This document shows, piece by piece, positions 29,910 through 62,975 of a stretch of DNA of 64,000 nucleotides. The translations under genes and the position numbers were made by a program. Each line of letters starts with the position of its first letter. Positions within the stretch are counted from its first letter, which is position 1. The stretch comes from Anadara kagoshimensis (taxonomy: Eukaryota; Mollusca; Bivalvia; Arcoida; Arcidae). Below the pieces are notes generated by a model. The model did not search any database and was not told the DNA's origin. It worked only from the letters and a program-made list of their open reading frames with translations. The stretch spans positions 40,302,843 through 40,366,842 of the forward strand of contig CM037867.1 of assembly GCA_021292105.1 (NCBI GenBank), read 5' to 3'.

Positions 29910-29917
29910 TATAAAAA
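29910..29917 (+). promoter_or_regulatory. TATA box of cationic/EF-hand gene 1
   Basis: TATAAAAA, followed 30 bases on by TCAGTT, a classical initiator, with A at 29940. All three paralogues share GTATAAAARCCCG here. A TTCCAAGAA palindrome (29851-29859) of STAT type lies upstream; its function is not shown. Confidence 0.7.
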
Positions 29918-29939
29918 CCCGGACTGAATGTGCTTGGTC

Positions 29940-30073
29940 AGTTACACTTCGACTATCAGCATCGATCATCTTGGTCAGTTAAGTAGTGAATAGATTTGGT
30001 CAGTTTAAAGAATTCAGAAGTACAGTAAAGTGCAAAGCAGTAAATAGACTTGGAAAAAATTTCTATTAAAAAG
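29940..30073 (+). other. Gene 1 exon 1 (5' untranslated)
   Basis: From the predicted initiator to the donor AAAAAG|GTACGT. It has no long frame and holds three copies of 'TTGGTCAGTT'. The same layout (TATA, short non-coding exon, donor) occurs in paralogues 2 and 3. Confidence 0.6.
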
Positions 30074-30509
30074 GTACGTTTTTATTTTTTGTTCCATCGT
30101 CTGTTTTGAAAAATCAGATATTGGTTATCAAACTAACACACTGGCGATTATTTATTTAATTAATTAATTATTTATTTATTTTGTTTTTTGTGATAAATTT
30201 CAATATACCTTGTAATTATCATTTTTATTTATTTATTTTCATTTTTTATATTAAATTTCAATTTATATATTTTTTATAATTACATATTTATTTATTATAT
30301 ATTATTTATTTATTTATTTATTTATTGTCAAAAGCATTTGTATTTTGCATTTATTGTGTAATTAGTACATTTTGTATAAAGTTTAAAAATGTTTGAGTTC
30401 AAGACGTCTCGATATAAGTGAAATATTATTGAACGAGACGTAATTTGAATCATAATCAATCAATTTGTTTCATTCTGTAATGGAAACAGATGAAAAATGT
30501 TTAATACAA

Positions 30510-30870
30510 GAGTTGAGTGAAGTAATGGTATTTCTTTCACTTATATCGAGACGGTCAGTTCAGGGATGGTGGAGGAAACCGAAGTGTCTAGAGAAAACGA
30601 TCGACCTCCGGTAAGCGAACTGAGCAAACTAACAAACTTTTTTTTCCTGTCAGAATGGTCACTTGCAAATAAGCGACCATCTAAACATAAATCCTTTTTT
30701 AGAATGTTCACTTTATTCTCATTGAGCAATAGAGTTTCCAACGAGTTACTGCTATTTCGCCAAGAACTCGTAAGAAATGAAAGCCAACGGGCATGAAAAA
30801 CCTAGCCCTGTACGTGTCACGGTAGGCGTTACGCCGCATCGCACCCTAAGGAGCCCTCCCTGCACATTGC
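30510..30870 (-). mobile_element. Composite SINE-B/SINE-A remnant in gene 1 intron 1
   Basis: 'cacttatatcgagacggtca' (SINE tail) is fused to the SINE-B phrase 'gggatggtggaggaaaccga'. SINE-A variant sequence 'aaggagccctccctgcacat' follows. Confidence 0.45.
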
Positions 30871-30948
30871 CCAACAAATTTTCCGAGAGTTACACAGAGA
30901 AGAGAGAGAGTAGTTAAAATACAGATCTTTCTTTTTAAAATATTCCAG

Positions 30949-31177
30949 ATGAAGCTCACAGTGTTATTTCTGATGTCCATTATTGCTATGGCAACCATTA
31001 CGTCAGTGAATGCTTGGCGCAGACGACGATCAATCAGGTTTCGAAGAATACTTAAACCACTTTGTCCTTTAGCCTGTTCTACTGCTTGTAGAGCCGCATG
31101 TTCCGGTTGTACTCCAGTGTGTGGTCCCGTATGTAGTCGAGTTTGCAGAGGGAAGCGAGAAGCTAACAAAGTACGGA

Positions 31178-31212
<35 letters not shown>

Positions 31213-34200
31213 TAATTACCCTTCCGGAGCGCCCGGCCTCACTTCCCTGGTGGAGGTTCACGTCTCACCTAACTTGTCAGTTCCAAAGTTTTTTCTTTGA
31301 TTCTGGATTGTGATTCGGACATGGATTAGTATGTTTGTATTTATTATTATTATTATTATTATTATTGCATGTTCCCCATATTTAGCATTGTTTTAAGAGA
31401 AACACGAGAGAGATACGAGTATATAGTATATCCACCACCATCATCATTATCGGTTTAATTATTGATGTTATCATGCAAATCTTTCCGGTGATTCTATTTT
31501 GGCGTTTATTGTGCTGTAACTTTCATTGCTGCTAGCAGTTTAAAGTTCAATGGTTATGTTTTCGTTCTTTTAAATCGTATTTTTTAAATCCTAAAATGAA
31601 TTTTAAACATGCATTTCTATTCGCTAGAACAGCCAATCAATGGTTTCATGCCTATATGAATCAACAAAAAGTGAGTGACGTCACTGTAGTAATGGTAATT
31701 ATACTCCCAAAGTTACGTCTGGTACCCAAACAGAGTTTAATACATTAAAACATCATACATGTAAATATTTTTCGTTGTTTTTCGTACACACGAAATTGCA
31801 TGTTAGCGAAATACTATATTATGTATATTACGACCCTACCTTAAATGGTAACCGCAAACCACGCATTTTCCAGCGTACGCAATGGTATGTTTTTAAGTTC
31901 ACATTAAGAGACATTATCGAGGCAACTCTATAACGATCAATATTATATTATTTCACTGTATTTCATATTCTAGGTATATGAAGATGGGACATTCTTCAAA
32001 CCAATGCCATGTAACTTTACAAGTTATGACCCAAATGGCGACAAGGTCATAACCCCTGCTGAACTTGGAAGTTTGACCAATGAATCTGGAGATGAAGATG
32101 ACGTCATAAAACTATTTACAGTCATGGACGTTGACGGTAATTGCTAGAAATACTGCCTCTTCAGAGACAAATTAAATACCCCCGATCCCAACATTTCCGA
32201 GTTGTAATTTCTAAGTTTTGACCTTAGTGTCGGGACTCTATTAAAACCAGTGAACATGAATTTGATATGAGACATATTGTTACATGTATGCAAGGTTGTT
32301 TTTCAAAATCTGTCAATAGACATGAAAGCCGACATGGTTGGACGGATGGGGTTATTTATTTATATTCCCCTTCACTTCCTATATACCACTGCGGTAGCTC
32401 AGCTGGTAGAGTGCTCGCTCCGTAATTGGAAGGTCGTGGGTTCGAACCCCGGCCGGGTCTTACCTAAGACTTGAAAGTGGGTAGTAACTGTTCTTTCGCC
32501 AAGCACTCGGCATTACGAAATGAAAGTCACGGTTCTCTCGGATGGGAACTTAAAATAAACGAGGTCCCGTGTCACGATGGGCAAGGCACGCTAAAGAACC
32601 CTGCTGTATAATGTCATCAGCGCAACGCACAGGCAAATTTTCTGCACCTTCGCCTATAGCTGGCGACGTCTCGATATAAGTGAAATATTCTTGACTGGGA
32701 CGTTAAACACCATTTCTCACTCACTTCACTTAAGAAAGGTTGTGAAAAAAAAATGCGGTGTGTAGGGATGGTTCTTTAACCTGTCATGGCACTGGGCATC
32801 AGTTTCTAAAAATCTCTTTCAAATAACCTGCGACTTTTATTTCGAAATCCCAAATGCTTTGCGTAAGAAAAGTCACTTCTTATTTGGAAGTCTTGGTCTT
32901 TTTGCTAACTTTAATTAGATACTATTATTTGATTTCGGTAAAATATATTTTGGTCCTTTGGATTTCTTTTCAACATCTTAAAAAAAGATTTCATTTTATA
33001 ATTTTGGTCCAAGCACTACTGATGAAGAATTGAATTCCGAAGGATCAGATTGTTACTGGTATAATATGGACTACACTTACATGTAGTTTCTGTCAAGTTA
33101 TAATCACGATTTGCGTTGGCTGTATTATATTATTGCTTGCTTTAGATATTTCAAACCACATATTTTTTAGATAAAAAAAATTCTATATTTCGTTGTATAG
33201 GTGATGGTGGAGTTACTGAAGAAGAATTTGAACTAGCACCTTTGATAAAAGACTGTGGAGGTCAAGGTCAGTTAGATATTAACTACAGTACAGACCTGTC
33301 TAAAGTTTAACACTAAGCTAACCAATACGTGCTGATTAGGCAGCTTATCTCGGCTACTCTGTACCTATAGGTACAGTACATACATGTCTAAAGTTTAACA
33401 CTAAGCTAACCAATACGTGCTGGTTAGGCAGCTTATCTCGGCTACTCTGTACCTATAGGTACAGTACATACATGTCTAAAGTTTAACACTAAGCTAACCA
33501 ATACGTGCTGATTAGGCAGCTTATCTCGGCTACTCTGTACCTATAGGTACAGTACATACATGTCTAAAGTTTAACACTAAGATAACGAATAGGTACCGAT
33601 TTAGGAGGTCATCTTGGCCCTTCATTACCTATATGTAGAGTACAGACCTGTCTAAAGTTTAACACTAAGATAACGAATAGGTACCGATTTAGCAGCTCAT
33701 CACGGCCCCTATTAGCTATATGTATTGTACAGACCAGTCTAAAGTTTAGATAACGAATAGGTACCGATTTAGGAGGTCATCTTGGCCCTTCATTACCTAT
33801 ATGTAGAGTACAGACCTGTCTAAAGTTTAACACTAAGATAACGAATAGGTACCGATTTAGCAGCTCATCACGGCCCCTATTAGCTATATGTATTGTACAG
33901 ACCAGTCTAAAGTTTAACACTAAGATAACGAATAGGTACCGATTTAGGAGGTCATCTTGGCCCTTCATTACCTATATGTAGAGTACAGACCTGTCTAAAG
34001 TTTAACAATAAGATAACGAATAGGTACCGATTTAGGAGGTCATCTTGGCCCTTCATTACCTATATGTAGAGTACAGACCTGTCTAAAGTTTAACACTAAG
34101 ATAACGAATAGGTACCGATTTAGGAGGTCATCTTGGCCCTTCATTACCTATATGTAGAGTACAGACCTGTCTAAAGTTAAACACTAAGATAACGAATAGG

Positions 34201-35584
34201 TACCGATTTAGGAGGTCATCTTGGCCCTTCATTACCTATATGTAGAGTACAGATCTGTCTAAAGTTTAACACTAAGATAACGAATAGGTACCGATTTAGG
34301 AGGTCATCTTGGCCCTTCATTACCTATATGTAGAGTACAGATCTGTCTAAAGTTTAACACTGAGCTAACGAATACAAGTCAAACCGGCAGCTCGTCTCGA
34401 CCCCTCACTAACTATAACCCGGCAGCTTTCCGGTAGCTGCTATCTATCTCTCGGAAAATACAACAAAGACATGTCTAAAATTCAAGTTTAACACTAAGCT
34501 AACGAATACGTGTGCCAATTCGGTAACTTATGTGGGTCCCTTATAATCAAAAACAAACATACTAATTCATGTCCGAATCACAATCCAGAAGCAAAGTAAA
34601 AACTTTGGAACTGATAAGTTAGGTTAGACACGTGAACTTTCACCAGGGAAGTGAGGCCGGATGCTCCGGAAGGGTAAGCACCTCCTGTTTAGCTAGCTAC
34701 ACCCGCCACGTGTGTAATCAAAATTGTGTGAAAGGAACATGGAACTATGGGACGTCAAATATATCCAGGACAATCTTGGACACAGAGACATCAAACTTAT
34801 CAACAATACTGTGATGACGGCTTTAAAACTTATGAGGGTCTTGATAAGCCTAGGCTTGCTTACATATTTCGGCTTCTCGACCGCAGACAATCGACTTTTA
34901 TCGGTAATGCCCCAGTCAAACATTCACGGATCACCTCGCCGTTACCACTACGGATTAAATTTCATGGATGACCCCGGAAAAGCCAATTTCCGTAGTCCAG
35001 CACGGATGCGATACGGACCTACTAGTACATAGTTAATCGTAACTAACCGTATAAATCCTTGACGATTACGGGCTTACTGATAAGCACGGGATAATACGGT
35101 TTTGATGGGGACTAAAACGGATCAGTACGTTCTTATACGGTTTAGCAAGGATATAATACGTTTGTTTGATCAGTGGTCAAAATTTGAACATGTTCGAAAA
35201 TTGTCACGGATATAGAAATTCTACTACAAATGACTACGTATGAGTATGGCTACTATACGGAAAGCTACGGACCACTACAGATTACCATGAATGATGCATG
35301 ACCGTATCCGTAGCTAATCCGGCGAGGTGATCCGTGAATTTGTGACTGGGGCCTAACTCGGGATTAAATTTACTTTCCTGGTTGAAGATCACGTGTTTAA
35401 CTTAAACAGTAAATTGTCCAGTCTTCAAAGTTTTTTAAATAGCTTTGAAATTGTGGTTAATTAGCCAAAGGTTGGCGTTTTTGTTTTTTTATAATTAATT
35501 TATTTAATTCTTTTATATGCAGGTGCTGAAACAGACATCGAGTTACAAGGGTTGGATGAAGGAAGCGAGGACGATGAAGAGTAG
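30949..35584 (+). CDS. Secreted cationic octacysteine/EF-hand precursor, gene 1
   Basis: CDS join 30949-31170, 31974-32136, 33201-33260, 35523-35584; 168 residues. All junctions are GT-AG and the phases (0,1,1) agree. Residues 1-22 are a signal peptide ending SVNA. Residues 23-38 are Arg/aromatic rich (WRRRRSIRF). Eight Cys at 39, 43, 47, 51, 54, 58, 62 and 66 have spacings 3-3-3-2-3-3-3. RGKR at 67-70 is a dibasic, amidation-type cleavage site. Canonical EF-hand loops follow at 93-104 (DPNGDKVITPAE) and 126-137 (DVDGDGGVTEEE), the second split by an intron. Cys 87 and 147 could pair. The tail is acidic (SEDDEE). Sequons are NFT (88) and NES (110). I infer a secreted precursor, perhaps antimicrobial, with an anionic calcium-binding pro-region. 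Cationic-peptide/acidic-pro-region layouts are known in mussel mytilins and myticins, but this Cys pattern and the EF-hands do not match any family I can name. This copy is the most complete. Confidence 0.8.
31171..31210. repeat. (ATT)n microsatellite at the gene 1 exon 2 donor
   Basis: ATT triplets start within 10 bases of the donor GTACGG and run to the following retroelement tail. Confidence 0.85.
31211..31350 (+). mobile_element. RT retroelement 3'-end fragment (intron 2, gene 1)
   Basis: Matches the 3' end of the reverse-transcriptase element at 38943-39945: 'cggcctcacttccctggtgg', 'cctaacttgtcagttccaaa' and 'ttgtgattcggacatggatt', followed by ATT repeats. Confidence 0.7.
32386..32737 (+). 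mobile_element. SINE-A, full length (gene 1 intron 3)
   Basis: tRNA-like head 'tagctcagctggtagagtgc' and B box 'gggttcgaacccc', a complete body, and the tail ending 'gacgttaaacaccatttctc' with CACT repeats. Confidence 0.9.
32935..33045 (-). repeat. Dispersed repeat K copy (gene 1 intron 3)
   Basis: 'ggtaaaatatattttggtcc' ... 'ttggtccaagcactactgat'. The same segment is found inverted at 42645-42870 and 61140-61380 and in this orientation at 51906-52025, so each EF-hand gene carries one. Confidence 0.65.
33271..34385. repeat. About 88-bp tandem array (gene 1 intron 4)
   Basis: About 12 copies of a unit containing 'gacctgtctaaagtttaaca', 'ctaagataacgaataggtac' and 'cattacctatatgtagagta'. The first three form a distinct subtype. 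Single diverged units occur near 36358, 38215, 40128 and 56140. Confidence 0.95.
34553..34900 (-). mobile_element. RT retroelement 3'-end fragment (gene 1 intron 4)
   Basis: The complement encodes remnants of the RT C-terminus. Shared phrases are 'catgtccgaatcacaatcca', 'gcaaagtaaaaactttggaa' and 'gacacagagacatcaaactt'. It is cut by the MITE at 34909. Confidence 0.75.
34909..35352. mobile_element. 444-bp MITE-F (gene 1 intron 4)
   Basis: Inverted ends of about 45 bp: 'gccccagtcaaacattcacg' at the left against 'tgaatttgtgactggggc' at the right, continuing through 'gatcacctcgccg' and its complement. Many TACGG motifs lie inside. No coding capacity. Confidence 0.75.
35365..35460 (+). mobile_element. 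Degenerate RT retroelement tail
   Basis: Weak match to the retroelement 3' end ('actttcctggttgaagatca', 'tcttcaaagttttttaaata'). Confidence 0.35.
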
Positions 35585-35851
35585 AATTTGAATCTGTTTC
35601 CATAGAGATGTGTTTAATTTTGATATTTATTTCAATTCAGTATATAACCATATTTACCGTTTTATGTTTTCAAAAACCCTTATTTAAAATATTTATTAAA
35701 AATGTACTGGGATTTATGATGCAAATGTTAATTTTGAAAGTAAATTTGGAGATCAAAAAGTTTTGTTTTTTTTGATAGTTTTAAAATTGTGTCAGCATAT
35801 ACACGTTTATACATGTATTTATTAAATTATGCATGTAATTTAAGTTTTCAA

Positions 35852-35857
35852 AATAAA
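35852..35857 (+). terminator. Polyadenylation signal, gene 1
   Basis: AATAAA, 268 bases past the stop codon. The 3' untranslated region would end within about 30 bases. Confidence 0.65.
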
Positions 35858-35951
35858 AGATGAATTTAATCATATGTATATTTCTTTATCATTTTAAAAA
35901 TTAATTTCGGTAAAAATATTTAACCAAAATACCGAGTAATCTATTCATATA

Positions 35952-40690: not shown

Positions 40691-40974
40691 AACTTTCGAC
40701 AGATCTGTACTGTATTTTCAATTCATCTGAAACCTTATTTTTGATCTTTGTTGCCACTTCATCTACAGCGGATGACGTCTCGATATATGTGAAATATTCT
40801 TGACTGGGACGTAAAGCCCATTCAGTAAAACAATCTATGTTAAACTTTCGACAGGTTTGTACTGTATTTTTAATTCACCCGAAACCGTGTTTTTGATATT
40901 TGTTGAGAGGTGGTTTCGAAAGTGTTCCCTGTCAATAAAACGCCAACTGTTACAGAACATGACATTCATTGCAG

Positions 40975-40982
40975 TATAAAAA
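40975..40982 (+). promoter_or_regulatory. TATA box of cationic/EF-hand gene 2
   Basis: TATAAAAA in GTATAAAAACCCG, as in gene 1. TCAATT with A at 41004 is a plausible start 29 bases downstream. Confidence 0.7.
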
Positions 40983-41003
40983 CCCGACGGAATGAGTTTT
41001 GTC

Positions 41004-41065
41004 AATTCAAACATTTTGAATATCAGCGACGAGCAAAGTAGCGGAACAAAGAATTTCAAACAAAG
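41004..41065 (+). other. Gene 2 exon 1 (5' untranslated)
   Basis: Short non-coding exon ending at donor CAAAG|GTATGT. Position and layout match genes 1 and 3. Confidence 0.55.
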
Positions 41066-42232: not shown

Positions 42233-45200
42233 ATGAAGCTCACTTTGTTGTTTTTATGTCGGTTATTGTTTTGACCGCCATTACGTCAGTGGACGCCTGG
42301 CGCCGCAGATTCAGATTTAGAGCTCGGAGAGTATGGAACCCCGTCGTCTGTCGTACAGTCTGCACTTACAAATGTAGTAAAGCATGTTCAAAATGTACTC
42401 CTGTGTGTGGATATGTATGTGGGAAAGTGTGCAGAGGGAAGCGAGAGGTGAAAACAGTTCGTATACCTACCTTATCATTATCATTACTGTAAACATATTT
42501 CATTTCGCGTGTATTTATTTTCGCGGTTGAAAAACTTTAGACATATCCGCGTTGTTAAATTTTCGCGTTTTGTGAAATATGCACTATACCACAAGTAGCA
42601 TAATTTACTTTTCGCTTGGAATTTATTTTTTAATTACTTAATTTACTTCCTCATCAGTAGTGCTTGGACGAAAATTATGAAACCTAAATTGTGATCAAGA
42701 TGTTGAAAAGATACCCAAAGGACCAAGATATATTTTACCAAATTGAGCTACGAAAATACTTTGCATAAGGGAATAAACCTTAGTTTTTTTAGCAATTTTA
42801 ACTTTTAACAAGCAGCAAATTTAGACAATAATATATTTCTTACAGTAATACACAATTATTGCCTACTGAGTTTGTTAAACCTAATTTGACAGGTTAGAAT
42901 TTATCCTTTTCCTTTTGCTATGGAAACTTGGTTTGTTTTTTATTTTTGCGTAACTGGAATGATAAAAATTGCTTTTATATAGAGGATCTTAGACGAGTGG
43001 GGGTTTAATATGAAATTTATTAAACGAGTTTAATAATTAAATTTAACATATACTTAGTATGGTATTTCCCTTGATACTCACAATTTGGACCTGCACAATA
43101 TCACAGGTCAATCAGGCGATACAGGCCAAAATTTCCTAATGAAGGAAGAGACTGTTTGTATCGGCCCTAGAGCCGATACAAGCTGTATCGGACCGGCGTT
43201 CACATTTTCCCGTACTTTTTCTCAAATTGGTAACCACTATTCATATTTAACCTAGGTATAAATCATGATTCATTCAAAATAAACACAAAATGGGATTACT
43301 GTTTTTAAAAATAAAAAAATACTATGATTTAATTAATTTAAATGGATTAAATTATCCAAAAAGGAGAAATAAAAAAGTCCGCCAAAATGTCACACATTCT
43401 GTGTCATGCACTTGCATTCTAAAACAGTTTATTCTTCAAAATCAAAATGGAGGAGTCACCTGGAGAAAGAATGTTAAATTCATTGTCAAATAGAATTTTG
43501 GAATTGAATGGCATTATTGAACGCCAAAGACATGGGCCAAGTGGTGACGCAGCTTTAAATATTCCGGACGACACACAGGACTTTATAAATGGGATGAAAA
43601 ATGAAAACACATCAAGAAAAACTGATGGCAACGTAAAAAAACTAAAAAAATGGCTAGAAACGAAAGGGGAACACAGAGACGTTTTTGAAATCCCAGCACC
43701 AGATTTAAACATATACTTGGCTCGATTTTTTATGACGATTAAACAGGATAATGGACAGGAATATGAGCCGGACACGCTCCGCTCATTTCAAGGTTCATTT
43801 CAGCGATTTTTGCGCGATCATCATTATCCTATTGACATCATCAAGGACAAAGAATTCAGTCATAGTCGGGAGTTTTGAGTTCGAAACAAAAGCAACTGAA
43901 GAAAATGGGATACGGGAATAAGAGAAGGAAATCACAGGCAATATCGGAGACGGATTTTGAAGTTATGATGGGCAAACAAGTCCTTGGTTTGGGTAAGTTT
44001 CTTCGTTCTTCTCAACCGTCCATTTGTATTTATCTTCTTGACCCTTTCTTGAACTACCTTCAAGTAAACAGAGCACCCGCTGGCGCACCTTTCAATAATG
44101 TAACCCACCAAAACGTTGCCTGTTTTGGTAAAACATAACCGGAGCACTTTTTGAACTCGCATGAGAATAAGTTAAATAACACCAAGTAACTGTTAATTTT
44201 GACAAGATTTATAAGCAAAAGGTATCTTAAATCAGAGATGTATAACACCCTGGTTTTATACATCTCTGCTTAAATGTAGTAATATGATTAATTTGAGTTT
44301 TTTTCTAAACTTTTTTAGCAAACCCAGAAGCCCTCTTGAACACAATATATTTGAATAACTCCATGCATTTTGGTCTAAGGGGACGACAGGAGCATATAAA
44401 CATGTATTGGGGAGACGTTGAACAGAAAACAAACTCTAGTGGATGCAGATATTTGGAATTCAACGAAAGAGAAACCAAAACTAGAAATGGATGCAATGGT
44501 GAAACACGACCATTTTCACCAAAGATGTTTGAAAAGAAAGGTAAGAAAACTTATTATAAATAAATAAATAAATAAATAAATTTTTAATAAATAAATAAAT
44601 AAATAATGAACCTAATAATTATATAGTTATATATGTTTTTTTTCAACAGATGATCCCAACTGTCCTGTTAAAGCGTTTGAAGAGTACAAGAAACGTAGAC
44701 CTGAGAGAATGAATGTCCCAGACGCAAGATTTTATTTACAAATAAACCGTAACAGAAAAGATAATGGTCCAGTGTGGTATAAGTGTCGGCCATTAGGAAA
44801 GAATTACATTGGAGGAATGGTCAAAACCATGGCAGAAAAAGGTAAAATAAAAGATAAATTATCTGTTTTAAATTGAAACTATATAATATAATAATAATAT
44901 AATAATAATAATAATAAAAAATTCATCTTTATCACTTATCCCATATTTCATTTTCAGCTCAGATTACAAATAAAAGGCTTACCAACCACAGTGGCAGAAA
45001 GACAACCGTGACAAGATTACTTGACCAAGGATTCCAGGCAGCTGAAGTGATGTCTTTGACAGGACATAAAAATGTGCAAAGCATAAACAATTACAATACT
45101 GTTTCAGAAGCTAAACAACGGAAAATGTCTGAAACTTTAACTCTAGCCCCTCCAAGAAATGAAGCTTCAGCAACTACTAGTAACACTGATCTAGATTTAA

Positions 45201-48200: not shown

Positions 48201-51200
48201 ATTTTTCAGTCTTTAGTATTAGTATTACAAATTCAAGATTATGTGCTGTGCCTATTTATTGTGTTATATATGCAATCGTTATACCCCGTCGATCGAATAT
48301 GGTGTCCCGGCCTCCTTCCTTCCTTCCACCGTCCGTCCGCCCGTCTAAAATTCATGTCTTCAAAAATACTCCAACACTAAAAAGAACTCTTTCAAAAAAC
48401 AAAGCATCAACATTAATAGCAGAAGGGCATATCGTTAACTTGAGCTGGTTTGCTCATTTTCCTGGGAGTCATTGCACTTCGAATAGATGTGGAAATAAAA
48501 AAAACATGCTAGCGGGGGATCATTATTCGCTAAATTTGCTTTTGTTTAAAACTATTTCTAACTACATAAAAACATTCACTTTTTTCTTTATTTAACTTGT
48601 TCTTATAGGGTCCTTAATAAAACTACCCGCTGGAGAAATTGTTATGATTGTTCAAAGTCTTGCGTTTAAGCATTGTTAATTTCAGATTGTGTGGTTTTTC
48701 TTGTGATGTGCTAATGTATTATGTTATAATTTTTAATTATTTCCAACCACGAGAACAAAATCCTTTTTCTTTAATTCAACTTGTTCTTATCAGGTCCTTA
48801 GTAAAACAGCCCGCTGGAGAAATTGTTATGACTGTTTAAAGTTTGTTATGACTGTTTAAAGTCTTGAGTTTAAGCATCGATAGTTTCAGATTATGTGTTT
48901 TATGTGCTAATTTTATATGTTATAATTTTTTTCACTATATCCAACAACGAGAACAAAATCTTTTTTTCTTTATTGAACTTGTTCTTAACAGGTCCACAGT
49001 AACAATACTCGCTGAAGATGTTATAATTATTCAAACATTTTAGTTTTATTTTCAATTACTTCAGATTATGTGTTTATCTCGTGATATTCTAATTTATTGT
49101 GTTATAATTTTTTTAAGCATTTCCAACCACGAGAACAAAATCTTTTTTTTTCTTTAATCAACTTGTTCTTAACAGGTCCACAGTAAAAATACTCGCTAAA
49201 GCTGTTATGATTGATCAGACATTTGAGTTTTAGTTTCAATGATTTCAGATTATGTGTTTATCTCGTGATATACTAATTTATTGTGTAATAATTTTTTTAA
49301 TTATTTTCAACCACAACACAAAATCTTTTTTTTTCTTTAATCAACTTGTTCTTAACAGGTCCACAGTAAAAATACTCGCTAAAGCTGTTAAGATTGTTTA
49401 CACATTTGAGTTTTATTTTCAATAATTTCAGATTATGTGTTTATCTAGTGAGATTCTAATTTATGTAGCTAGCTAAACAGGAAGTGCTTACCCTTCTGGA
49501 GCACCGGGCCTCACTTCCCTGGTGAAAGTTCATGTGTCTAACCTAACTTGTCAGTTCCAAAGTTTTTACTTTGCTTCTGGATTGTGATTCGGACATGGAT
49601 TAGTATGTTTGTTTTTATTATTGTGTTATTTGTTGTTTTAGTTATCTTTTGATGTGCTTATTCATTGTTTTATTAGTTAGTTAAGTTATTTTCGACCAAA
49701 TGTTTCTTTTACCTATGTATATTATATTGTACACAGGTGATGGCGGTATTACTGAAAAGGAATTTGAAGAAGCACCCTTAATCAAAGACTGTGGAGGTAA
49801 GCTTACTATATATATACAGGTCCATCCTGAAAGTTTGGACACCCCCGTCTATAATCTTTGTAAAAGAGCAATGTTGATGGTCTTAGTACTTGGTGTTTTG
49901 TTAACTTATATTTGTTGAAAGACTACCTTGAATGTTTTTCAAATGGCATATATGATAAAAGTTTTCATTTTTAAATTAGTTTTAGTGAACATGTCATTTT
50001 ATCAGTTAAAATTCCTTCTGTGTTGAAAATACTAAAAAAAATTAGAAATACAGTAAAATTGAATTTTTGTTAGTGTATTGAACGATTATTTATTTTTCGT
50101 ATAACGTCTATTTCCTACTGCAAAAAGATGTTTTTAGTATTATTTGACTTAGAAAAACATTTTGTCTTATGCTTTGTTCTCATTGTTTAAAATCATTTTT
50201 GCCAAAGGACAGCCGCTTTTGTGTCTGAAATATATAAAGGGAGATAACAATGTCTTTTGCAATTTTATTGCGTCAAATTAACATTGATTAGATCTGATGG
50301 TATGCAAAATGAAAGTAACTATTAAACAAATCATTTATAAAGCATGTCAAAAATTGTTATAGCAAACAAATTCGTGGCTAGCTATGAATCACTTTAATGG
50401 GGTGTCCAAACTTTCTGGATGGACCTGTATATATATATAAACTTTGTTGCTGGATTAGGCCAAAGATTCACAATCATTCCTTAATTACAATTTTCCTTTT
50501 GATTTTAAATCTGGCAAATTTCAAATATTTATAATTTTGTTAATATCTAAGTGTAAGGAATTTAAGATGCCATTTAAAAAAACACTTTAACCTTACAACA
50601 TATGTTTCTAGATTTGTCAAAAAAATATTTGATGTCATAAAGGATTGCAAAGAGCTAAATTTATATTAGAGAAAATATTAATCAAGGAATGGTAACGAGA
50701 CCAGTGCCCGGTTTCACAATCATTCCTTATCTAAGATTTTCTTTAGCTTAAATCTTGCAAAATTTCAAATCTTCAAGTGTCATTGTTAAGGCTACTTCTA
50801 GATTAATACATTTGCATCTTGTTTTGACAAAAATATTTAACGCTAGATTTAAAAAGAGATTACAAAAAATTGCTAAATTTGAATTAAGGAAAATTTAAGC
50901 TATGGAAATATTGTGAAACTGGAGCCTGAACCAACAATATTGTTCTGCTTTATTGGAAATACACACCTTACTTATCGCTATGCATTGTCCTGGTTACGTT
51001 AGGGAACATGCTTTTATCAATGTTTATAAACTTATGCCAGTTTATGGACCAGGCAGTCAGACCCAAAATGATATGTGAATCAAAGCGGAGAGGACATAAT
51101 TTATATAACGTTCGGCCCGGAGCTTTAATATACGATTATATGGCCCGGAGTAGTTACAATGGTTTTCAGTATAAACTAAAATTTATGGTATAACATTCAT

Positions 51201-51495
51201 GTTTAAAGCTCATGAATCTAAAAAAAATACTTCATGATATTGATCATTTATGCAATCGAAAGCCTCGATGTTAGCATTCATGGTTCCTCACATTATAACA
51301 GAAAGCTGTGATTTTCTTAGGGAGGGCTCCCAGCCGCTGTTCATTCTAAATTTGAAAGAGTTCAACGATAGAGCTTTATTATTATTCATTTATTAGCATT
51401 TATTTATTTATTTATTTATTTATCATAAAGGTGCTAAGAAAGACACTAAGGAACGAGAGTTGGATGAAGAAGGCGAGAACGAAGAAGAGGTGTAA
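42233..51495 (+). CDS. Secreted cationic octacysteine/EF-hand precursor, gene 2 (frameshift in signal peptide)
   Basis: Exons 42233-42456, 46565-46727, 49737-49796, 51431-51495. Exon 2 starts MKLTLLF as in its paralogues, but one base is missing near 42244-42255 next to a T run, which shifts the frame. The original frame resumes at Met 42256, giving the shorter hydrophobic leader MSVIVLTAITSVDA. The Arg-rich segment (WRRRFRFRARR), the eight-Cys module with the same 3-3-3-2-3-3-3 spacing and the RGKR site are intact. So are both EF-hand loops (DVNDDKVITPAE and DADGDGGITEKE) and the acidic tail. The exon 2 donor is GTTCGT where gene 3 has GTACGT. Intact downstream exons argue for recent damage, a short alternative leader, or a sequencing error. 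Intron 2 holds the Crypton-like element. Confidence 0.65.
42488..42620. mobile_element. MITE-C copy (gene 2 intron 2)
   Basis: 'tactgtaaacatatttcatt' to 'tacttttcgcttggaattta'. It is shared with gene 3 at the same distance from exon 2, so it predates the duplication. The right end is lost. Confidence 0.6.
42645..42870 (+). repeat. Dispersed repeat K copy (gene 2 intron 2)
   Basis: 'catcagtagtgcttggacga', 'caagatgttgaaaagatacc' and 'aatactttgcataagggaat' match 61140-61380. Confidence 0.65.
42976..45711 (+). mobile_element. Crypton-like tyrosine-recombinase element with 65-bp terminal inverted repeats
   Basis: 2736 bp. The left end (42976-43042) and right end (45647-45711) are inverted repeats with about 90% identity, sharing 'gggtttaatatgaaatttat'. 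Just inside lie repeated GTATCGGC motifs: a GTATCGGC/GCCGATAC palindrome at 43158-43179, a further GTATCGG at about 43185, and TATCGGC at 45554 and 45587. A 9-bp-stem hairpin lies at 45623-45648. The cargo is a spliced tyrosine recombinase gene. Cryptons are generally described as lacking terminal inverted repeats, which makes these boundaries unusual. It sits in intron 2 of EF-hand gene 2. Confidence 0.7.
43447..45454 (+). pseudogene. Crypton/DUF3504-type tyrosine recombinase, four exons, one frameshift
   Basis: Exons A 43447-43992, B 44319-44540, C 44650-44841, D 44958-45454. All junctions are GT-AG and in phase 1. Exon A has a basic N-terminal region (KKLKKWLETKGEHRDV) and a SAM-like core (NIYLARFFMTIKQDNGQEYE). 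A missing base near 43866-43874 breaks the frame before LSSKQKQLKKMGYGN. Exon B carries the first catalytic Arg in MHFGLRGRQEHINMYWGDV. Exon D carries H-x-x-R in NHSGRKTT, the second His in SLTGHKN and the Tyr nucleophile in SINNY, so the whole R-H-R-H-Y set is present. The family is that of Cryptons and the Crypton-derived ZMYM/QRICH1/KCTD1 genes. AATAAA at 45450-45455 overlaps the stop codon. The host gene runs on the same strand. The frameshift may be real or a sequencing error. Confidence 0.75.
45712..46564. other. Remainder of gene 2 intron 2
   Basis: AT-rich; no exon or named repeat is recognised before the acceptor TTTTTAG|GTAGATG. Confidence 0.4.
46808..46996. mobile_element. Hairpin MITE just past gene 2 exon 3
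   Basis: 189 bp with inverted ends of about 50 bp: 'gttcaccgctgtaccatgtg' at the left against 'cacgtggtacaacggcgaac' at the right, continuing through 'aacgtttgtgcggaa' and complement. Starts 81 bases after the exon 3 donor. Confidence 0.75.
47039..47368 (-). mobile_element. SINE-A (gene 2 intron 3)
   Basis: Tail 'ccagtcaagaatatttcttg', body, and head 'gcgctcgaaccaacgaattc' / 'ctaccaactgagctaacgca'. Moderately diverged. Confidence 0.8.
47508..47860 (-). mobile_element. RT retroelement 3'-end fragment (gene 2 intron 3)
   Basis: Matches the reference copy from 'aacaaacatacctatctatg' through 'cttcctgtttagctagcttc' and 'gggccttgataagcttaggc'. Confidence 0.7.
48127..48232. repeat. Inverted repeat of about 35 bp
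   Basis: 'atactaaaactgaagacttt' with 'aaaaatcatatcttcttc' is followed about 40 bases on by the complement 'gaagaagatatgatttttca' and 'gtctttagtattagtat'. Confidence 0.7.
48297..48500 (-). mobile_element. Dispersed repeat E copy 3
   Basis: Begins with CCTT/CCGT tetranucleotides and carries the complement of the copy at 11140-11372 ('gagctggtttgctcattttc'). Confidence 0.45.
48590..49455. repeat. About 185-bp tandem repeat, nearly five copies (gene 2 intron 3)
   Basis: 'caacttgttcttaacaggtc' recurs at about 48597, 48779, 48977, 49161 and 49343. The units include 'tcagattatgtgtttatctc' and 'ccaaccacgagaacaaaatc'. Confidence 0.9.
49460..49640 (+). mobile_element. RT retroelement 3'-end fragment (gene 2 intron 3)
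   Basis: 'tagctagctaaacaggaagt' to 'gtgattcggacatggattag'. It follows the 185-bp array directly and ends about 100 bases before exon 4. Confidence 0.7.
49817..50427. mobile_element. 611-bp mariner-like MITE (gene 2 intron 4)
   Basis: Terminal inverted repeats of about 29 bp with one mismatch: 'caggtccatcctgaaagttt' and then 'ggacacccc', complemented at the right. TA-rich flanks on both sides. The same intron in gene 3 lacks it. No coding capacity. Confidence 0.85.
50456..50702. mobile_element. MITE-D, diverged copy shared with gene 3
   Basis: 'ccaaagattcacaatcattc' at the left end and 'aatcaaggaatggtaacgag' at the right. The same insertion is at 62174-62345 in intron 4 of gene 3. Confidence 0.65.
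50706..50926. mobile_element. MITE-D copy next to the former
   Basis: 'cccggtttcacaatcattcc' to 'atattgtgaaactggagcc', with a shortened interior. It abuts the older copy. Confidence 0.7.
51395..51424. repeat. (TTTA)n tract at the exon 5 acceptor, gene 2
   Basis: TTTA units run almost to the acceptor CATAAAG|GTGCTAAG and supply its pyrimidine-rich region. Confidence 0.8.
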
Positions 51496-53744: not shown

Positions 53745-54655
53745 GATTTTGACCTGTCCGCTTGACCTTTAATATAATGGACGAATATGACAAGGTGATA
53801 ACAATTGAAATATATATAGGCAAACAACATTGACCTGCCCACTTGACCTTTAATATAATGGACGAATATGACAAGGTGATAACAATTGAAATATATATAG
53901 GCAAACAACATTGACCTGTCCGCTTGACCTTTAATATAATGGAAGAATATGACAAGGTGATAACAATTGAAATATATATAGGCAAACAACATTGACCTGT
54001 CCGCTTGACCTTTAATATAATGGACGAATATGACAAGGTGATAACAATTGAAATATATATAGGCAAACAACATTGACCTGTCCGCTTGACCTTTAATATA
54101 ATGGAAGAATATGACAAGGTATAACAATTGAAATATATATAGGCAAACAACATTGACCTGTCCGCTTGACCTTTAATATAATGGACGAATATGACAAGGT
54201 GATAACAATTGAAATATATAGGCAAACAACATTGACCTGTCCGCTTGACCTTTAATATAATGGAAGAATATGACAAGGTGTAACAATTGAAATATATATA
54301 GGCAAACAACATTGACCTGTCCGCTTGACCTTTAATATAATGGACGAATATGACAAGGTGATAGCAATTAAAATATATATAGACAAACAACATTGGCCTG
54401 TCCGCTTGACCTTTTATATAATGGACGAATATGACAAGGTGATAATAATTGAAATATATATAGGCAAACAACATTGACCTGTCCGCTTGACCTTTAATAT
54501 AATGGACGAATATGACAAGGTGATAGCAATTAAAATATATATAGGCAAACAACATTGACCTGTCCGCTTGACCTTTAATATAATGGACGAATATGACAAG
54601 GTGATAGCAATTAAAATATATATAGACAAACAACATTGACCTGTCTGCTTGACCT
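53745..54655. repeat. 81-bp tandem array, about 11 copies
   Basis: The unit contains 'gacctgtccgcttgaccttt', 'aatataatggacgaatatga' and 'caaggtgataacaattgaaa'. Diverged copies lie upstream (53020-53060) and, inverted, at 53215-53250 and 54800-54840. Because 81 is 27 codons, long repetitive frames of up to 304 residues stay open on the minus strand. They are not considered genes. Confidence 0.97.
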
Positions 54656-54902
54656 TTGACTTAAATGTTTATTACGGACAAATACATTTTATTATTGGTA
54701 GCGCATGACAAATGTGCATTAATCATACGTACATGTTTTATTCGAGGATTCTAACACTACCCACGTTTTGCCTGGGTCATCGTTTTATGATTATTCCTAA
54801 TGAAAGGTCAATCAAACAGGTCATTGTTGCTTGCCTATACTGACTGAATATTGTGAACTCTAGTTAACATGACCTGCGTTTTCCTTCATATGAATCCCGA
54901 AA

Positions 54903-56669: not shown

Positions 56670-56676
56670 TATAAAA
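56670..56676 (+). promoter_or_regulatory. TATA box of cationic/EF-hand gene 3
   Basis: TATAAAA in GTATAAAAGCCCG, aligned with genes 1 and 2. The likely start is near 56700 (CCAGATC). Confidence 0.7.
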
Positions 56677-56699: not shown

Positions 56700-56766
56700 A
56701 GATCGAGAATCTAAAATACGCTGGAAACACCGTGAATAACCTTCTTGAAGAAAATTGAAATAAGAG
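56700..56766 (+). other. Gene 3 exon 1 (5' untranslated)
   Basis: Short non-coding exon ending at the strong donor AAGAG|GTAAGT. Confidence 0.55.
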
Positions 56767-57000: not shown

Positions 57001-57054
57001 TTATTAATCTATTAATTCTTTTCTTTAATTTAGTCTTTTCAATTGAGCTATTAA

Positions 57055-57450
57055 TTAATTAAATTGGTTTTTACGTCCCAATCTATATCGAAACGTCACC
57101 AGCTATACGTGAAGTGGCAGAATTTTTTACCTGTGGGGTGCGTTCAGGGCAATGTGAAGGGTTAATTCTGTAAATAGCTATAGGCGAAGGAGAAGAATTT
57201 TGCCTGTGCATTTCGCTGATCGTTTTATACATCAAAGTTCTTTATCGTGACACGACTACCGTTATACGGGACCTCGTTTATTTTAATTTATCATCCGAAA
57301 GAACCATGATTTTCATTTCATAATGCCGATTGTTTGGCGAAAAAATGGTCACTACCAACTTTCAAGTCTTTTGTCATACCAGGTCGGGGTTTGAACCCAG
57401 GAACTTCCACTTACGGTGCAAGCACTCTACCAACTGATATACCGCAATGG
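57055..57450 (-). mobile_element. SINE-A, two joined copies (gene 3 intron 1)
   Basis: A variant tail (57055-57170, 'ccagctatacgtgaagtggc') is followed by a second copy from 'gctataggcgaaggagaaga' to the head 'gtttgaacccaggaacttcc' / 'ctaccaactgatataccgca'. Confidence 0.65.
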
Positions 57451-57852
57451 TACCTCCGAATATAAAGCAGTATGGTTGTGCATACACTATTTTTCTTGCA
57501 TCGTGATAGCAATTCGTGTCGAATGTTTAGGGCAAATTAATGGTTTGGTTTTGTTGTGACATTTGTAGATGGAATTTTACAAAAATTAATATTCAAAATT
57601 TCAATTGTCATATTCAGAATGCTGAAAATTTCTATTGTCACAAAAAACATTATCGGCTTCGAAAAAAATTAAAACATATTTTACAAATCCACATAAGGAA
57701 ATAATTTTTAAATGATTAAGAATTGTTTTTTCTAGATTTTTTATTTAGACGTTGATTAAGTTGGATAATTAATTTTAAATGACACCAGCAAATTTAAATA
57801 CACATACGCTGAATTCAGGCAATCACTTTCTGATGGTTCAGATTTTGACAAG

Positions 57853-57880
57853 TTTTTTTTTTTTTTTTTTTTTTTTTCTT
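57853..57880. repeat. T-rich tract
   Basis: About 28 bases, nearly all T. Confidence 0.9.
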
Positions 57881-58342
57881 TTTAAGGGGGGGTGGTTTTG
57901 GTATCATAATAACATTTTTATCTGTAAATCAAATGCTTCACTGTTTAATCCGTTTGGAATTAATTGGATGTATTTTAACTTTTAAATATTTTTGTTTTTT
58001 ACATGTGTATTGAAAATATCCAGTAGCATCCACTCAGACGGTGTAATGTAAATGCCTTACATTTCTTCAGAAATTCAATTCGTGTGACTAGACTCTGTGC
58101 CATGATAAAACACCATATAACATTTTCATTGTCATTAAACAATCTTGGAATAGTTTTTATTAAAAAGCTTGTTTAAGAACAGAAGGCACGCAATAGTCCG
58201 AATTAAATTTTACACCCTTGTTAATGATTCTCGGCGATGTTTTGCCCTTAAAACTGACGCCAGCCAAACCCCAAAAGATAAATCCGATTGCTAAAGCATC
58301 ACGTTACGTTATATTCATGGAAGGTTGTTTTCAATATTTCAG

Positions 58343-58816
58343 ATGAAGCTCACTCTGTTGATTGTTATGTCGGTTATTGTTTTGACCGCCATTACATCAG
58401 TGGATGCTTGGCGCAGACGCAGATTTAGGTTTCGATTACGGAGAGTATGGGCGCCTATCTGTCGTACAGTCTGCTCTTACAAATGTATTGCAGCATGTAC
58501 AGCATGTACTCCTGTCTGTGGTCTTGCATGTGGGAAAGTTTGCGGACGAAAGCGAGAAGTGAAAACAGTACGTACACCAACCTTATCATCATCATCATCA
58601 TCACCATCATTACTGTAAACGCATTTCATTTCGCGTGTATTTATTTTCGCGGTTGAAAAAATGTAGACATATCCGCGTAGTTAAATTTTCGCGTTTTGTG
58701 AAATATGCACTATACCACAATAAGAATATATACTTTTCGCTTGGAATTAATTTTCGCGCAAAATAAACGACCACAAATTAGCGAAAATTAGTGCACCGCG
58801 AAAATAAATTCTGTTA

Positions 58817-58855
<39 letters not shown>

Positions 58856-58945
58856 AAGTAAGTCGTTTCTCGCGTGTTCACCAATATTCAGTAGCGATTT
58901 GAAAGTGAAACGGAAAACTAACAGCATATCCATCATCACCATAAC

Positions 58946-58977
<32 letters not shown>

Positions 58978-61900
58978 CCATTAACATCACCATAACCATC
59001 ATCATTATCATCATCATTATTTTTGTACTAAGTGTTTTAAAAAACGTCTTTTTAAGAGAAGATGTTGATTATTTAAACAGTAGAAAAAAGTGCTTCATAA
59101 CCGTAAATTAGTTCTTTAAATATGTACAACCCATATAAATTAAGAAATGCTTAATTTGACCTGTACAACTTGATGAATAAATTCTTCCACCACTCCTAAC
59201 ATTTTCAAAATTTCTTCGTGATCTCCAGTAGTTTTTGAGGGCAATGATAACCCTAGGCTTTGCAATATCTCAGGATCAATAATTTATTTGTGAGCAGCTT
59301 GCATCATTGTACATTGTATAAAGTTCTCGTAGTGGGAACAAGCTCTACCATAGCATGCTAATTGTGAAACAAATACACCATATGTAGGAAAGTTGAGTTG
59401 AGTTGAGTAATGGTGTTTAACGTCCCAGTCAATAATATTTCATTTATATCGAGACGTCGCCAGCTATAGGCGAACGTGCAGAAATTTTGCCTGTGCGTTG
59501 CGCTTATGGCATTATGCAGCAGGGTTCCACCGTGACACGGGACCTCGTTTATTTTAAGTTCCCATCCGAAAGAACCGTGAATTTCATTCCGTATTGCCGA
59601 GTGCTTGGCGAAAGAACAGTCAATACCCACTTTCAAGTCTTGGATCAGACCCGGCCGGGGATCGAACCTACGACCTTCCACTTACGGAGCGAGCACTCTA
59701 CCAACTAAGCTACCACAGTGGTTCATATTAGGAGAAGCATGTACATATGACTACATAGAAGTGGAAAGCTGAGAGTAGATAAATTCGAGTTATCACGTTT
59801 ATTATACAGCTTTAAATACAAAATCTATAGCCTTTCGTGACCTTTCATAGTTGACGTATCGCCGGGTACGCCCACAATGGTTCCGATACTGACCGCCATC
59901 ACTCTACCAAAGCAGCGTCACGGCAATTAATGACGTTCTAGTGTCAGTGTCATCATTAAACCGCAAAACTCAGGACGAGTTTTCATTCTTTTTGCGTGTA
60001 ATTCAAGCATGTCGGCTCTTTGTCGGAACATAGTGGGCGTGGTCTGAGAAACGTCTATTGAGGTATAAGAGATTACATACAAAAGTGATGTTGTGCCGTT
60101 CAGTGAGCCAATTCCAAGTCGATCACCACGTTTTTAAAGTATTTTAATTTATTTTAGGTAGGCGGAGATGGAACATTTATCAAACCGATGCCATGTAACT
60201 TTAAAAGTTATGACGTAAATGACGACAAGGTCATAACCCCTGATGAACTTGGAAGTTTGATCAACGAATCAGGAGAAAAAAATGACGTCAAACAATTGTT
60301 TAAAGTCATGGATACTGACGGTAAATGCTAGAAACATTTATTTAGGGGATAACTGTCTTGTAATTTTCGATTTGCAGTTATACTGTCGCAAATTAGTTTT
60401 ATTGGCGACGCGTCAGTTATTTGCGATAGTATAATCACCGATATACGTCTGCAAATCAAAAATTACAAGACAGTTATCCCTATTCTAATTCAAAACATAC
60501 TTTAAAGGATCTGGTAAGCATTTTCTAAAAACGATACTATAAATAACTCGGTGATTTTCTAAATCCATTTGAACTGGTTGAGATAGATCACACGAACCAT
60601 TTCCCGCTTTAATTGGATTTCTCTAACTTTTAAATCTGATTCTACGAAAAAGTAAAGTGCCTTCCGGATGAGACACGATCACTTACAGACACTACATTGA
60701 TAACGTCATAATCATTTTACGCAAGTACGTCAACAAAATTTGATGACATCATTTTCCGAACACACGGACGGTGGCATGATCTGATGCAAATATTTGTTTA
60801 CAAATCGAGTTTTGGCGTCTGAGTAAAAGAATCCTACACCACTAACGGTGTAATATTTTCAATGACAGGAAATATTCATCCTCGATTGATATATCTCTGT
60901 CATACCCTGTGTAAGTTTCCATTAATTTATTAAGATGGTTCGGTACCGAATACGCACGTGCAAGTACCCGAAACATTTGAAGCAGTATATTGTGGTTTTA
61001 TTGTCGGAATTTGCGACAATATATCGACGATTTAACAGTCGCAATTTTTTTACGTCAGCCAATGAAAACGAGCGTTACATACAGAATGAATTAGAATTCA
61101 TATTATACACGATTCATTTTACAGCACTAGACGACCCTTTCGGAATACTATTCCTCGTCAGTAGTGCTTGAACCAAAATTATGAAATCAAAATTATTTTC
61201 AAGATGTTGAAAACATTATCAAAAGACCAAAATATATTTTACCAAATTTAACTAAGAAAATACTTTGCTTTAGGGAGTATACCTTCGTTTTTTAAGCAAT
61301 TTAAGATTTTAACTAGCAGTAAATTTAGACAATAGTATACATGTATTTACAAATATTGCCTACTGAATTTGTGATATCTTCGGAGAATCATCAATTTATA
61401 ATGTTTATAATATAAATAAAATAGCTTACCATATACGGATCGGTAGTCAGTCATTTGAGTTGAGAGTTAAGTAACGGCGTGTAGCGCCCAAGTTAAGAAT
61501 ATTTCACTTATATCGAGGCGTCATCAGATATAGTCGAAGGTACAGAAACTTTGCCTTTGCGTTGCGCACCGTGACACGGGACCTAGTTTATCTTAAGTTC
61601 CCAATAGAAGAACCGTGACTTTCATTTCGTAATGCCGCCGAGTGGCGAAACAACAGTCACTACCAACTTTCATCTTTTGGGTCAGATCATGTCGGAATCG
61701 AACCCACGACCTCACACTTACATAGCTAGCACTATACCAACTGAGCTACTTCAGTCAAATTGCAAATATTAGTTAAACACGTGAACACTCACCGTAGAAA
61801 TGAGGCCTTGTACTCCGGAAGGGTAAGCACTTCCTGTTAAGCTAGCTCCACCCGCCTCTTGTGTAGTTAAAATTGAAAGAAATAATGGACGTCAAATATA

Positions 61901-62118
61901 TTCAGGATTTTTTATATAGAGCAATATTGTAATGACTGTCATAAACCGTTTGAGAGTCTTGGTAACCCTAGGCTTGTGAAATCGCTGGGTTTTTAGTCAT
62001 TGGAACTAATTTGTGTCTTATACCTGTGTATATTTTATTGTATAGGTGATGGAGGAGTTACTAAAAAAGAATTCCAAGCAGCACCCTTAATAAAAGACTG
62101 TGGAGGTCAGCCTATTAA

Positions 62119-62158
<40 letters not shown>

Positions 62159-62675
62159 AACTTTTTTATTGGACTAGGCCAAAATTTCGCAATCATTCTT
62201 TAACTACATTTTTTGAATCTAGCAAATTTCAAATCTTTATAATTTTGTTAATTTCTAAGTGTAAGGTATTTAAGATGTCATTTTAAAGATCGCTTTAACC
62301 TTACAACATATGTTTCTAGCTTTGTTTATTTTTAATTTGAGTTCAATAAAGAATTAAAAAACTATATTTAAAGCTGGTCTTATAATTTTCATGAGTCTAA
62401 TAAATGTTCATCTTTACCATCGAAAGCCTTATTTATTCATGACTGTTAGCATTATAACACTAAGCTGTCACTTCCTGGGAAGGGCTTTCAGTGGATGATC
62501 TCAATTTGAAAGCGTTCACTAATAGAACATTAATTATTCATTAGCATTTATGTATTTATTTATTTATTTATTTATTTATATGTTTTTAATTATTTATTTA
62601 TTTATTTGTTTTTTATTTATTTATTTATTTATTTTTAGCATTTATTTATTTATTTATTTATTTATTTATTTGTTT

Positions 62676-62714
<39 letters not shown>

Positions 62715-62787
62715 TCATGCAGGTGCTGAGAAAGACACTAAGGAACGAGAGTTGGACGAAGAAGGCGAGAACTATGAAGAGGAGTAA
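58343..62787 (+). CDS. Secreted cationic octacysteine/EF-hand precursor, gene 3
   Basis: CDS join 58343-58567, 60158-60320, 62046-62105, 62723-62787; 170 residues with intact phases (0,1,1). Signal peptide 1-22 ends SVDA. The mature region starts WRRRRFRFRLRR. Eight Cys from residue 40 have spacings 3-3-3-2-3-3-3, ending at GRKR (furin and amidation-like). EF-hand loops are DVNDDKVITPDE and DTDGDGGVTKKE, with Cys in PMPCNF and KDCGG. The tail ENYEEE is acidic. The first sequon present in genes 1 and 2 (NFT) is NFK here, while NES is kept. The exon 2 donor is GTACGT. Introns 1, 2 and 4 align with gene 2, so these two are the younger pair. Function is inferred as for gene 1: secreted, possibly host defence or calcium-dependent storage. 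Confidence 0.8.
58612..58815. mobile_element. MITE-C, complete (gene 3 intron 2)
   Basis: 'tactgtaaacgcatttcatt' at the left, 'gcgaaaataaattctgttac' at the right. The same insertion is in gene 2 at 42488, there truncated. Confidence 0.65.
58818..58852. repeat. (ATT)n microsatellite
   Basis: ATT triplets. Confidence 0.95.
58925..59022. repeat. (ATC)n microsatellite
   Basis: CAT/ATC triplets with interruptions. It gives poly-Met and poly-Ile frames that are not genes. Confidence 0.95.
59215..59850 (-). mobile_element. RT retroelement remnant split by a SINE (gene 3 intron 2)
   Basis: Left part 59215-59392 and right part 59723-59850 match the reference copy (39320-39560) as one segment. The SINE at 59393-59722 interrupts it. 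Confidence 0.7.
59393..59722 (-). mobile_element. SINE-A inserted in the retroelement remnant
   Basis: Complete element from GAGTTGAGT repeats to 'gctaccacagtgg'. The flanks ATATGTAGGAAAG and ATATTAGGAGAAG look like a mutated target-site duplication. The uninterrupted paralogue at 39459-39475 shows the empty site. Confidence 0.85.
60347..60480. mobile_element. Hairpin MITE just past gene 3 exon 3
   Basis: About 134 bp. 'ggataactgtcttgtaattt' and 'cgatttgca' are complemented at the right end ('tgcaaatc', 'aaattacaagacagttatcc'). Starts 27 bases after the exon 3 donor. Confidence 0.75.
60481..61140. other. Non-coding part of gene 3 intron 3
   Basis: No exon or named repeat is recognised. Confidence 0.4.
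61140..61380 (+). repeat. Dispersed repeat K copy (gene 3 intron 3)
   Basis: 'gtcagtagtgcttgaaccaa' through 'caaatattgcctactgaatt', aligned with 42645-42870. Confidence 0.65.
61455..61757 (-). mobile_element. SINE-A (gene 3 intron 3)
   Basis: Tail, shortened body and head ('gaatcgaacccacgacctca', 'ctataccaactgagctactt'). Confidence 0.75.
61785..61995 (-). mobile_element. RT retroelement 3'-end fragment (gene 3 intron 3)
   Basis: 'gtactccggaagggtaagca', 'cttcctgttaagctagctcc' and 'ggacgtcaaatatattcagg' match the reference copy. It lies about 50 bases before exon 4. Confidence 0.7.
62120..62156. repeat. (GT)n microsatellite beside the exon 4 donor
   Basis: GT dinucleotides start about 15 bases after the donor GGAG|GTCAGC. 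Gene 2 has TA repeats at this place. Confidence 0.95.
62174..62345. mobile_element. MITE-D, diverged copy shared with gene 2
   Basis: 'ggccaaaatttcgcaatcat' to 'cttacaacatatgtttctag'. Aligned with 50456-50625; the right half is lost. Confidence 0.6.
62545..62715. repeat. Expanded (TTTA)n tract at the exon 5 acceptor, gene 3
   Basis: About 170 bases of TTTA units end directly before TCATGCAG|GTGCTGAG. The gene 2 tract is about 30 bases. Confidence 0.95.
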
Positions 62788-62969
62788 AATTTTGACGTAT
62801 CCATGGAGATGCCCTTATTCCATTTACGAGAAATTATTATAAAAACACCAACCAATTAAAATCAAATATCTAATGCAAATGTTAATTTTTCTAATTTATT
62901 TTTGGGATTCAAAGATATTTTCTAGAAGTTATATTGATGTGAATTCATGTATGTAATCTAAGGGCTTAA

Positions 62970-62975
62970 AATAAA
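62970..62975 (+). terminator. Polyadenylation signal, gene 3
   Basis: AATAAA in 'taagggcttaaaataaaatc', as in gene 2. Confidence 0.7.

Follow-up and report, generated by a model that had tools for sequence, protein, structure and literature searches.

What kind of gene would place a strongly basic, cysteine-rich peptide and a pair of EF-hands in one secreted precursor, and are the two parts really in one precursor? The question is raised by three genes (here g1, g2 and g3) in a stretch of 64 000 nucleotides from the bivalve Anadara kagoshimensis (contig CM037867.1, termed C11 below; the whole of this stretch, C11:40302843-40366842, is the window). They form a real tandem family, all on the + strand, with one common plan: a TATA box, an apparent short non-coding exon, an exon 2 that holds the signal peptide, the head and a basic site, two EF-hand exons (a and b) and an acidic tail exon. 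We think it probable that the members of the family are precursors of secreted host-defence peptides, in which the head would be masked by the EF-hand pair and then cleaved off as a membrane-active peptide.

Head and EF-hand exons in one gene

The main evidence that head and EF exons are joined in one gene is the way in which they pair across the genome (1.115 Gb searched; all counts from the searches are lower bounds). With exon 2 of g1 as query, there were 10 matches among 11 scored candidates (E 1.3e-42 to 1.6e-7), namely g1-g3 and seven paralogues (h1-h7) at 138-398 kb on contig C8. EF exon a of g3 gave 21 matches among 32 scored, and each of the best ten (E 2.0e-31 to 1.2e-7) has a different one of the ten heads as its partner on the same strand. 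A query with a C8 head found 12 matches among 14 scored: the same ten, and two weak ones on contig C14 (E 0.17).

When exon borders were picked for AG/GT and phase, all ten gene models had AG/GT introns and open frames (that of g2 from its second ATG), and h1-h7 proved to have in common with g1-g3 the exon phases, signal peptide, 8-Cys head, basic site, EF pair and acidic tail, with exceptions in g2, h2-h4, h6 and h7 that are noted below. Because the ten paired loci have common splice junctions, an unspliced reading of exon 2 was dropped. Both loci are tandem arrays. The C8 copies (L032-L038, at C8:136-400 kb) make up a block of four genes and another of three, and h1/h5, h3/h6 and h4/h7 are nearly identical, so it is possible that they reflect a recent segmental duplication, or haplotypes left unmerged.

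The octacysteine head

The Arg-rich heads, encoded by exon 2 (30949-31170 in g1, 42233-42456 in g2 and 58343-58567 in g3), are strongly basic and marked by Trp and Arg; in 10/10 gene models their net charge is +11 to +17, vs -13 to -24 beyond the cleavage site. All eight head cysteines are kept in every copy, while five of their eight codons alternate synonymously between TGT and TGC. The first-pass annotation had described the spacing as 3-3-3-2-3-3-3, identical in all copies; it can be read in each of g1-g3, and the identity stops at these three, the seven paralogues (7/10 copies) having 3-3-5-2-3-3-3. A chance origin of the pattern was rejected after shuffling of the g3 head (1 of 200 000 shuffles had at least six of the seven gaps equal to 3). 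The dibasic site that had also been claimed for the window genes is there in all three, as RGKR or GRKR (RGKR in g1, GRKR in g3); it lies close to the end of exon 2, and seven of the ten heads have such a site.

What is this head related to? None of the five heads submitted (g1, g2, g3, L032 and L038) matched a Pfam family above cut-off: MSSP, C_tripleX, Ribosomal_L22, TMEM100 and others fell below it, as did NCBIfam matches (XopAW among them), and all were read as chance or as EF-hand cross-matches. A profile search of solved structures with the head (the profile including signal peptides) gave a best E of 0.34, to an entry unrelated by name.

The EF-hand module

EF exon a (31974-32136 in g1, 46565-46727 in g2 and 60158-60320 in g3) begins in phase 0, encodes the motif PCxF-x-x-[YF]-D and the first calcium loop, and breaks off after the first base of codon 4 in the second loop. 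This loop is completed by EF exon b (33201-33260, with a conserved KDC, in g1; 49737-49796 in g2; 62046-62105 in g3), which ends near the second conserved Cys, the two exons together encoding 74-76 residues. Both loops of g1-g3 have ligand residues at positions 1, 3, 5 and 12, which bears out the two EF-hands of the annotation, and the EF-hand_7 pair model (Pfam PF13499, cut-off 30) was passed by all three spliced proteins submitted out of the ten models (g3, 40.8 bits; h1, 35.5; g1, 34.9). EF exon a of g3 by itself passed EF-hand_6 (27.7, cut-off 25) and stayed below the cut-off of EF-hand_7 (28.8). SPARC_Ca_bdg came close yet remained below its cut-off of 22 (18.9, 20.7 and 13.6 bits), and was rejected. 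The acidic tails were likewise as described, each on an exon of its own (35523-35584 in g1 and 62723-62787 in g3, both with the stop; 51431-51495 in g2).

In a tree of 22 EF rows (four with the exon-a part only, and with L042, L043, L045 and L055 left out), deep support was weak; the octacysteine genes fell into two groups, and a calmodulin-like outgroup row stood beside one of them (support 0.43).

The same module behind other heads

Does the EF module always follow an octacysteine head? Sixteen further EF loci were examined: the 11 weaker matches to EF exon a of g3 (L039-L049) and five of 15 new EF matches (L050-L053 and L055). Twelve of the 16 yielded a readable head exon that ends in phase 0, ten of them through scripts seeking a phase-0 GT and two (L040 and L052) by likeness to siblings where the script's choice failed. 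Four further kinds of head were found, their dissimilarity being judged by eye. Six have four cysteines, in ECEWVC...CGLKC and similar forms (L039-L042, L044 and L045); one is Arg-rich and linear, ending GKKRSA (L047); three are Gly-rich repeats on C19 ending FKRDL (L046, L048 and L051), which look attacin-like by eye (two of the three were submitted to Pfam, with no match above cut-off); and two have few cysteines and end NCGGCGKRKR or NCGSCGKRKR (L050 and L052). Counted from residue 21, the charge is +13 for L047, +10 to +11 for the Gly-rich heads and +7 for L050. The remaining loci comprise L053, which has a head candidate with ambiguous splicing, L043 and L055, with no resolved head, and L049, which is calmodulin-like and was placed outside the family. 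Between the head candidate and the EF exon of L053 lies, as judged by eye, a mariner/Tc1 transposase-like frame.

At 13 of 15 loci scanned (the exceptions being L043 and L055, with L049 outside the scan), EF exon a has a phase-0 start and a phase-1 end, and exon b follows at 10 of those 13; at L050 a candidate exon b that the script had missed is visible by eye in the reading frames. The script took these phases only, so that the counts establish that such borders exist and leave room for others; border contexts printed separately agree with them. The intron inside the second calcium loop occupies the same position behind other kinds of head.

The two C14 matches mentioned above may be described here. 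One, L054 (C14:56855500-56857500, - strand), encodes a signal peptide and a 6-Cys head (CX3CX3C...CX3CX3C) with VVKRSAE at its end; neither the remainder of L054 nor the adjoining 2001 bases showed an EF exon, and none of the completed EF searches had a match on C14. The second is at C14:54523976.

We read this as a precursor family with interchangeable heads and a constant EF-hand pro-domain. A bolder version, which we hold tentatively and judge a little short of an even chance, is that the EF exon pair is a calcium-dependent cis-chaperone, and that exon exchange at a single phase-0 junction has brought in front of it at least five dissimilar secreted heads (8-Cys Arg-rich, 4-Cys CX3C/CX3C, Arg-rich linear, Gly-rich repeats, and the KRKR-ending type with few cysteines), mytimycin being the only named member. 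A search of the open-licence literature found no description of several heads on this EF module.

Relation to mytimycin and other cysteine-rich peptides

The first-pass annotation knew of no named family with this layout, and in this it was mistaken. Mytimycin is an antifungal peptide isolated from mussels and expressed mainly in hemocytes, and its precursor has a signal peptide of 22-23 residues, a Cys-rich mature peptide of 54, a dibasic site and an anionic EF-hand extension of 75 residues (PMC8004829, PMC3210125). The same order of parts (signal, Cys-rich cationic peptide, basic site, anionic EF extension) is found in nine of the ten models here (the signal of g2 being doubtful, and the basic site being RGNR in three of the ten). 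The extension has 75 residues there vs 74-76 here, a comparison of lengths only. Mytimycin, too, is reported to have a non-coding first exon and to be multigenic with pseudogenes (PMC8004829), resembling the apparent non-coding first exon and the several genes, with g2 as a possible pseudogene, seen here. There are nevertheless clear differences. Mytimycin is described as having 10 invariant cysteines plus accessory ones (10-14 in all) in another array (PMC8004829), whereas here an Arg-rich stretch is followed by eight cysteines that form a CX3C ladder; and the two published mytimycin genes have three exons (PMC3210125), compared with four coding exons and an apparent non-coding one here, the last coding exon being an extra acidic tail. 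Because the Cys array differs (eight cysteines with 3-3-3-2-3-3-3 or 3-3-5-2-3-3-3 in 10/10, and no 10-Cys backbone), membership in mytimycin proper was rejected for the octacysteine genes. What is already known, then, is the layout of a cationic Cys-rich peptide with an EF extension; what is new is a different peptide, and the occurrence of the same EF exon pair behind four other kinds of head.

Other Cys-rich peptides have narrower likenesses. The plant alpha-hairpinins, whose cysteines form CX3C pairs, are helix-loop-helix peptides with four cysteines, which resemble the heads in the idea of a ladder. We know of no EF-hand part in these or in the ascidian turgencins. In turgencins, C1-C6/C2-C5/C3-C4 pairing and a helix-loop-helix-like fold have been described (PMC7024374), again a similar ladder, with which only the CX3C spacing is consistent here; they have six cysteines, and the alpha-hairpinins four, vs eight here. 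Mussel CRP-I peptides resemble the family in being multigenic, secreted and Cys-rich with a dibasic propeptide site, but are described as having a knottin array (C-C-CC-C-C) and a mature peptide in the last exon, in a text that nowhere mentions an EF-hand (PMC10138031). Identity with them was rejected: the heads are without a CC pair, and are encoded by the first coding exon.

How might the precursor work?

If the host-defence reading is right, the heads, with their ladder CX3CX3C(X3 or X5)C-X2-CX3CX3CX3C, may fold as helical hairpins with the rungs C1-C8, C2-C7, C3-C6 and C4-C5. Within the secretory pathway, which is rich in calcium, the EF-hand pair would then bind the basic amphipathic head in cis with help from the acidic tail, much as calmodulin does with peptides of this type, and the bound head would be kept harmless until processing, when a furin-like protease would cut after RXXR/KR and release it as a membrane-active peptide. 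The idea of calcium-dependent masking comes from the charge pairing of head and EF part and from melittin, an antibacterial basic peptide that serves as a widely used model of calmodulin-target binding (PMC6162328). The part played by the EF-hand of mytimycin is called unknown by its describers (PMC8004829). The defence role itself is supported by mytimycin, since this antifungal peptide has the same order of parts.

Comparison of the window genes shows that the head has diverged more than the EF part in nonsynonymous substitutions (dN 0.18-0.42 vs 0.09-0.14), and from this and the ratios below both parts appear to be constrained. Several observations weigh against the reading that we prefer. 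The synonymous divergence (dS) of the head is also higher (0.35-0.94 vs 0.31-0.49); dN/dS is 0.38-0.53 for the head and 0.27-0.42 for the EF part, the head being the lower for g1-g3 (0.38 vs 0.42), so that a faster head is not upheld for every gene pair. The C8 heads lean towards amino-acid changes without reaching significance (13:3 for h1-h4, p = 0.34; p = 0.36 when set against the 5:3 of the EF part), and positive selection on them was dropped as an explanation. In h2, h3 and h6 the cleavage site is RGNR, in h4 and h7 the acidic tail is shortened, and loop 2 of h2 has no acidic residue at position 5. Finally, charge pairing fails for the 4-Cys heads of the wider EF family, the five counted having charges of -2 to 0; the charge-neutralised precursor that had been proposed thus holds for the ten octacysteine genes and is not general among the genes with this module.

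Could the EF-hands have a different purpose? It is possible, though unlikely, that the genes encode shell-matrix or calcification proteins, in which calcium of the extrapallial fluid would be bound by the EF pair, and matrix by the basic head, with no role in defence. Secreted EF-hand proteins are known in mollusc shell formation: the mantle-expressed Hdh-SMP5 of abalone, for example, has a signal peptide and EF-hands (PMC10741955). It is, however, a secreted acidic protein of 134 residues, and the sections that describe it mention neither a basic Cys-rich head nor a cleavage site (PMC10741955). The presence of the EF module behind several dissimilar heads here also speaks against a shell-matrix role. 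Slightly less likely still are peptide-hormone or other signalling precursors, in which the cleaved Cys-rich head would act on a receptor and the EF domain would serve sorting to dense-core granules. Hormone precursors, too, are built from a signal peptide, a basic cleavage site and a Cys-rich product, and calcium-binding acidic domains promote granule sorting, but a charge of up to +17, the alternation of Arg and hydrophobic residues, the divergent tandem heads and a probably broken copy fit effector peptides better. It seems improbable that the heads are toxins of the venom or deterrent type, with the EF-hands as their pro-domain: the general layout would be equal and the heads are divergent, but the closest published layout found is that of an immune peptide, and the presence of a venom organ cannot be judged from genomic sequence.

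Further features of the window

The three genes of the window have products of 168 amino acids (g1), 170 (g3) and 162 (g2, if begun at the later ATG). In the sequence before g1 a TATA box can be read directly (29910-29916), and like sites precede g2 (40975-40981) and g3 (56670-56676). Downstream of each comes what looks by eye like a non-coding exon, with GT as its donor. In g1 this exon is at 29940-30073 (start approximate, donor at 30074), with a promoter end similar to 40974-41035; it ends at 41065 in g2 and at 56766 in g3. Promoter likeness is appreciable between g1 and g2 (E 5e-6) and limited to 22 bases between g1 and g3 (E 0.10). The poly(A) signal of g3 (AATAAA) can be read directly at 62970-62975.

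A signal peptide had been claimed for all three genes. It is present in g1 and g3 and doubtful in g2, because the signal-peptide codons of g2 have one base fewer than those of g3, so that a frame begun at the usual ATG (42233) is cut off by a stop codon, the otherwise intact head being in frame only from the ATG at 42256, with a leader of 14 residues. Possibly g2 is a pseudogene; alternatively its leader may be a poor one, or the assembly may be in error here. Inside its first coding intron, open reading frames at 43423-43878 and 44918-45454 (+ strand) look by eye like a tyrosine-recombinase (Crypton-like) element, and mariner/Tc1 transposase-like frames, again by eye, lie downstream of g3 (63429-63829, - strand). 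Three tandem repeats were also seen: an 88-base array of 12.5 copies (33287-34374) starting shortly past EF exon b of g1, a 46-base repeat of 43.8 copies with 96% matches (12245-14259), and an 81-base repeat of 11.3 copies (53749-54657), which leaves a probably spurious open frame of 312 amino acids on the - strand.

Implications

The eight-Cys CX3C ladder would be a compact scaffold, and one that matches no Pfam model or solved structure among those searched. What has been an oddity of one mussel peptide becomes a rule that can be tested, in which many different peptides share a single calcium-binding pro-domain. If the EF part masks basic peptides in a calcium-dependent way, it would be a device for the storage of host-defence peptides and for self-protection against them.

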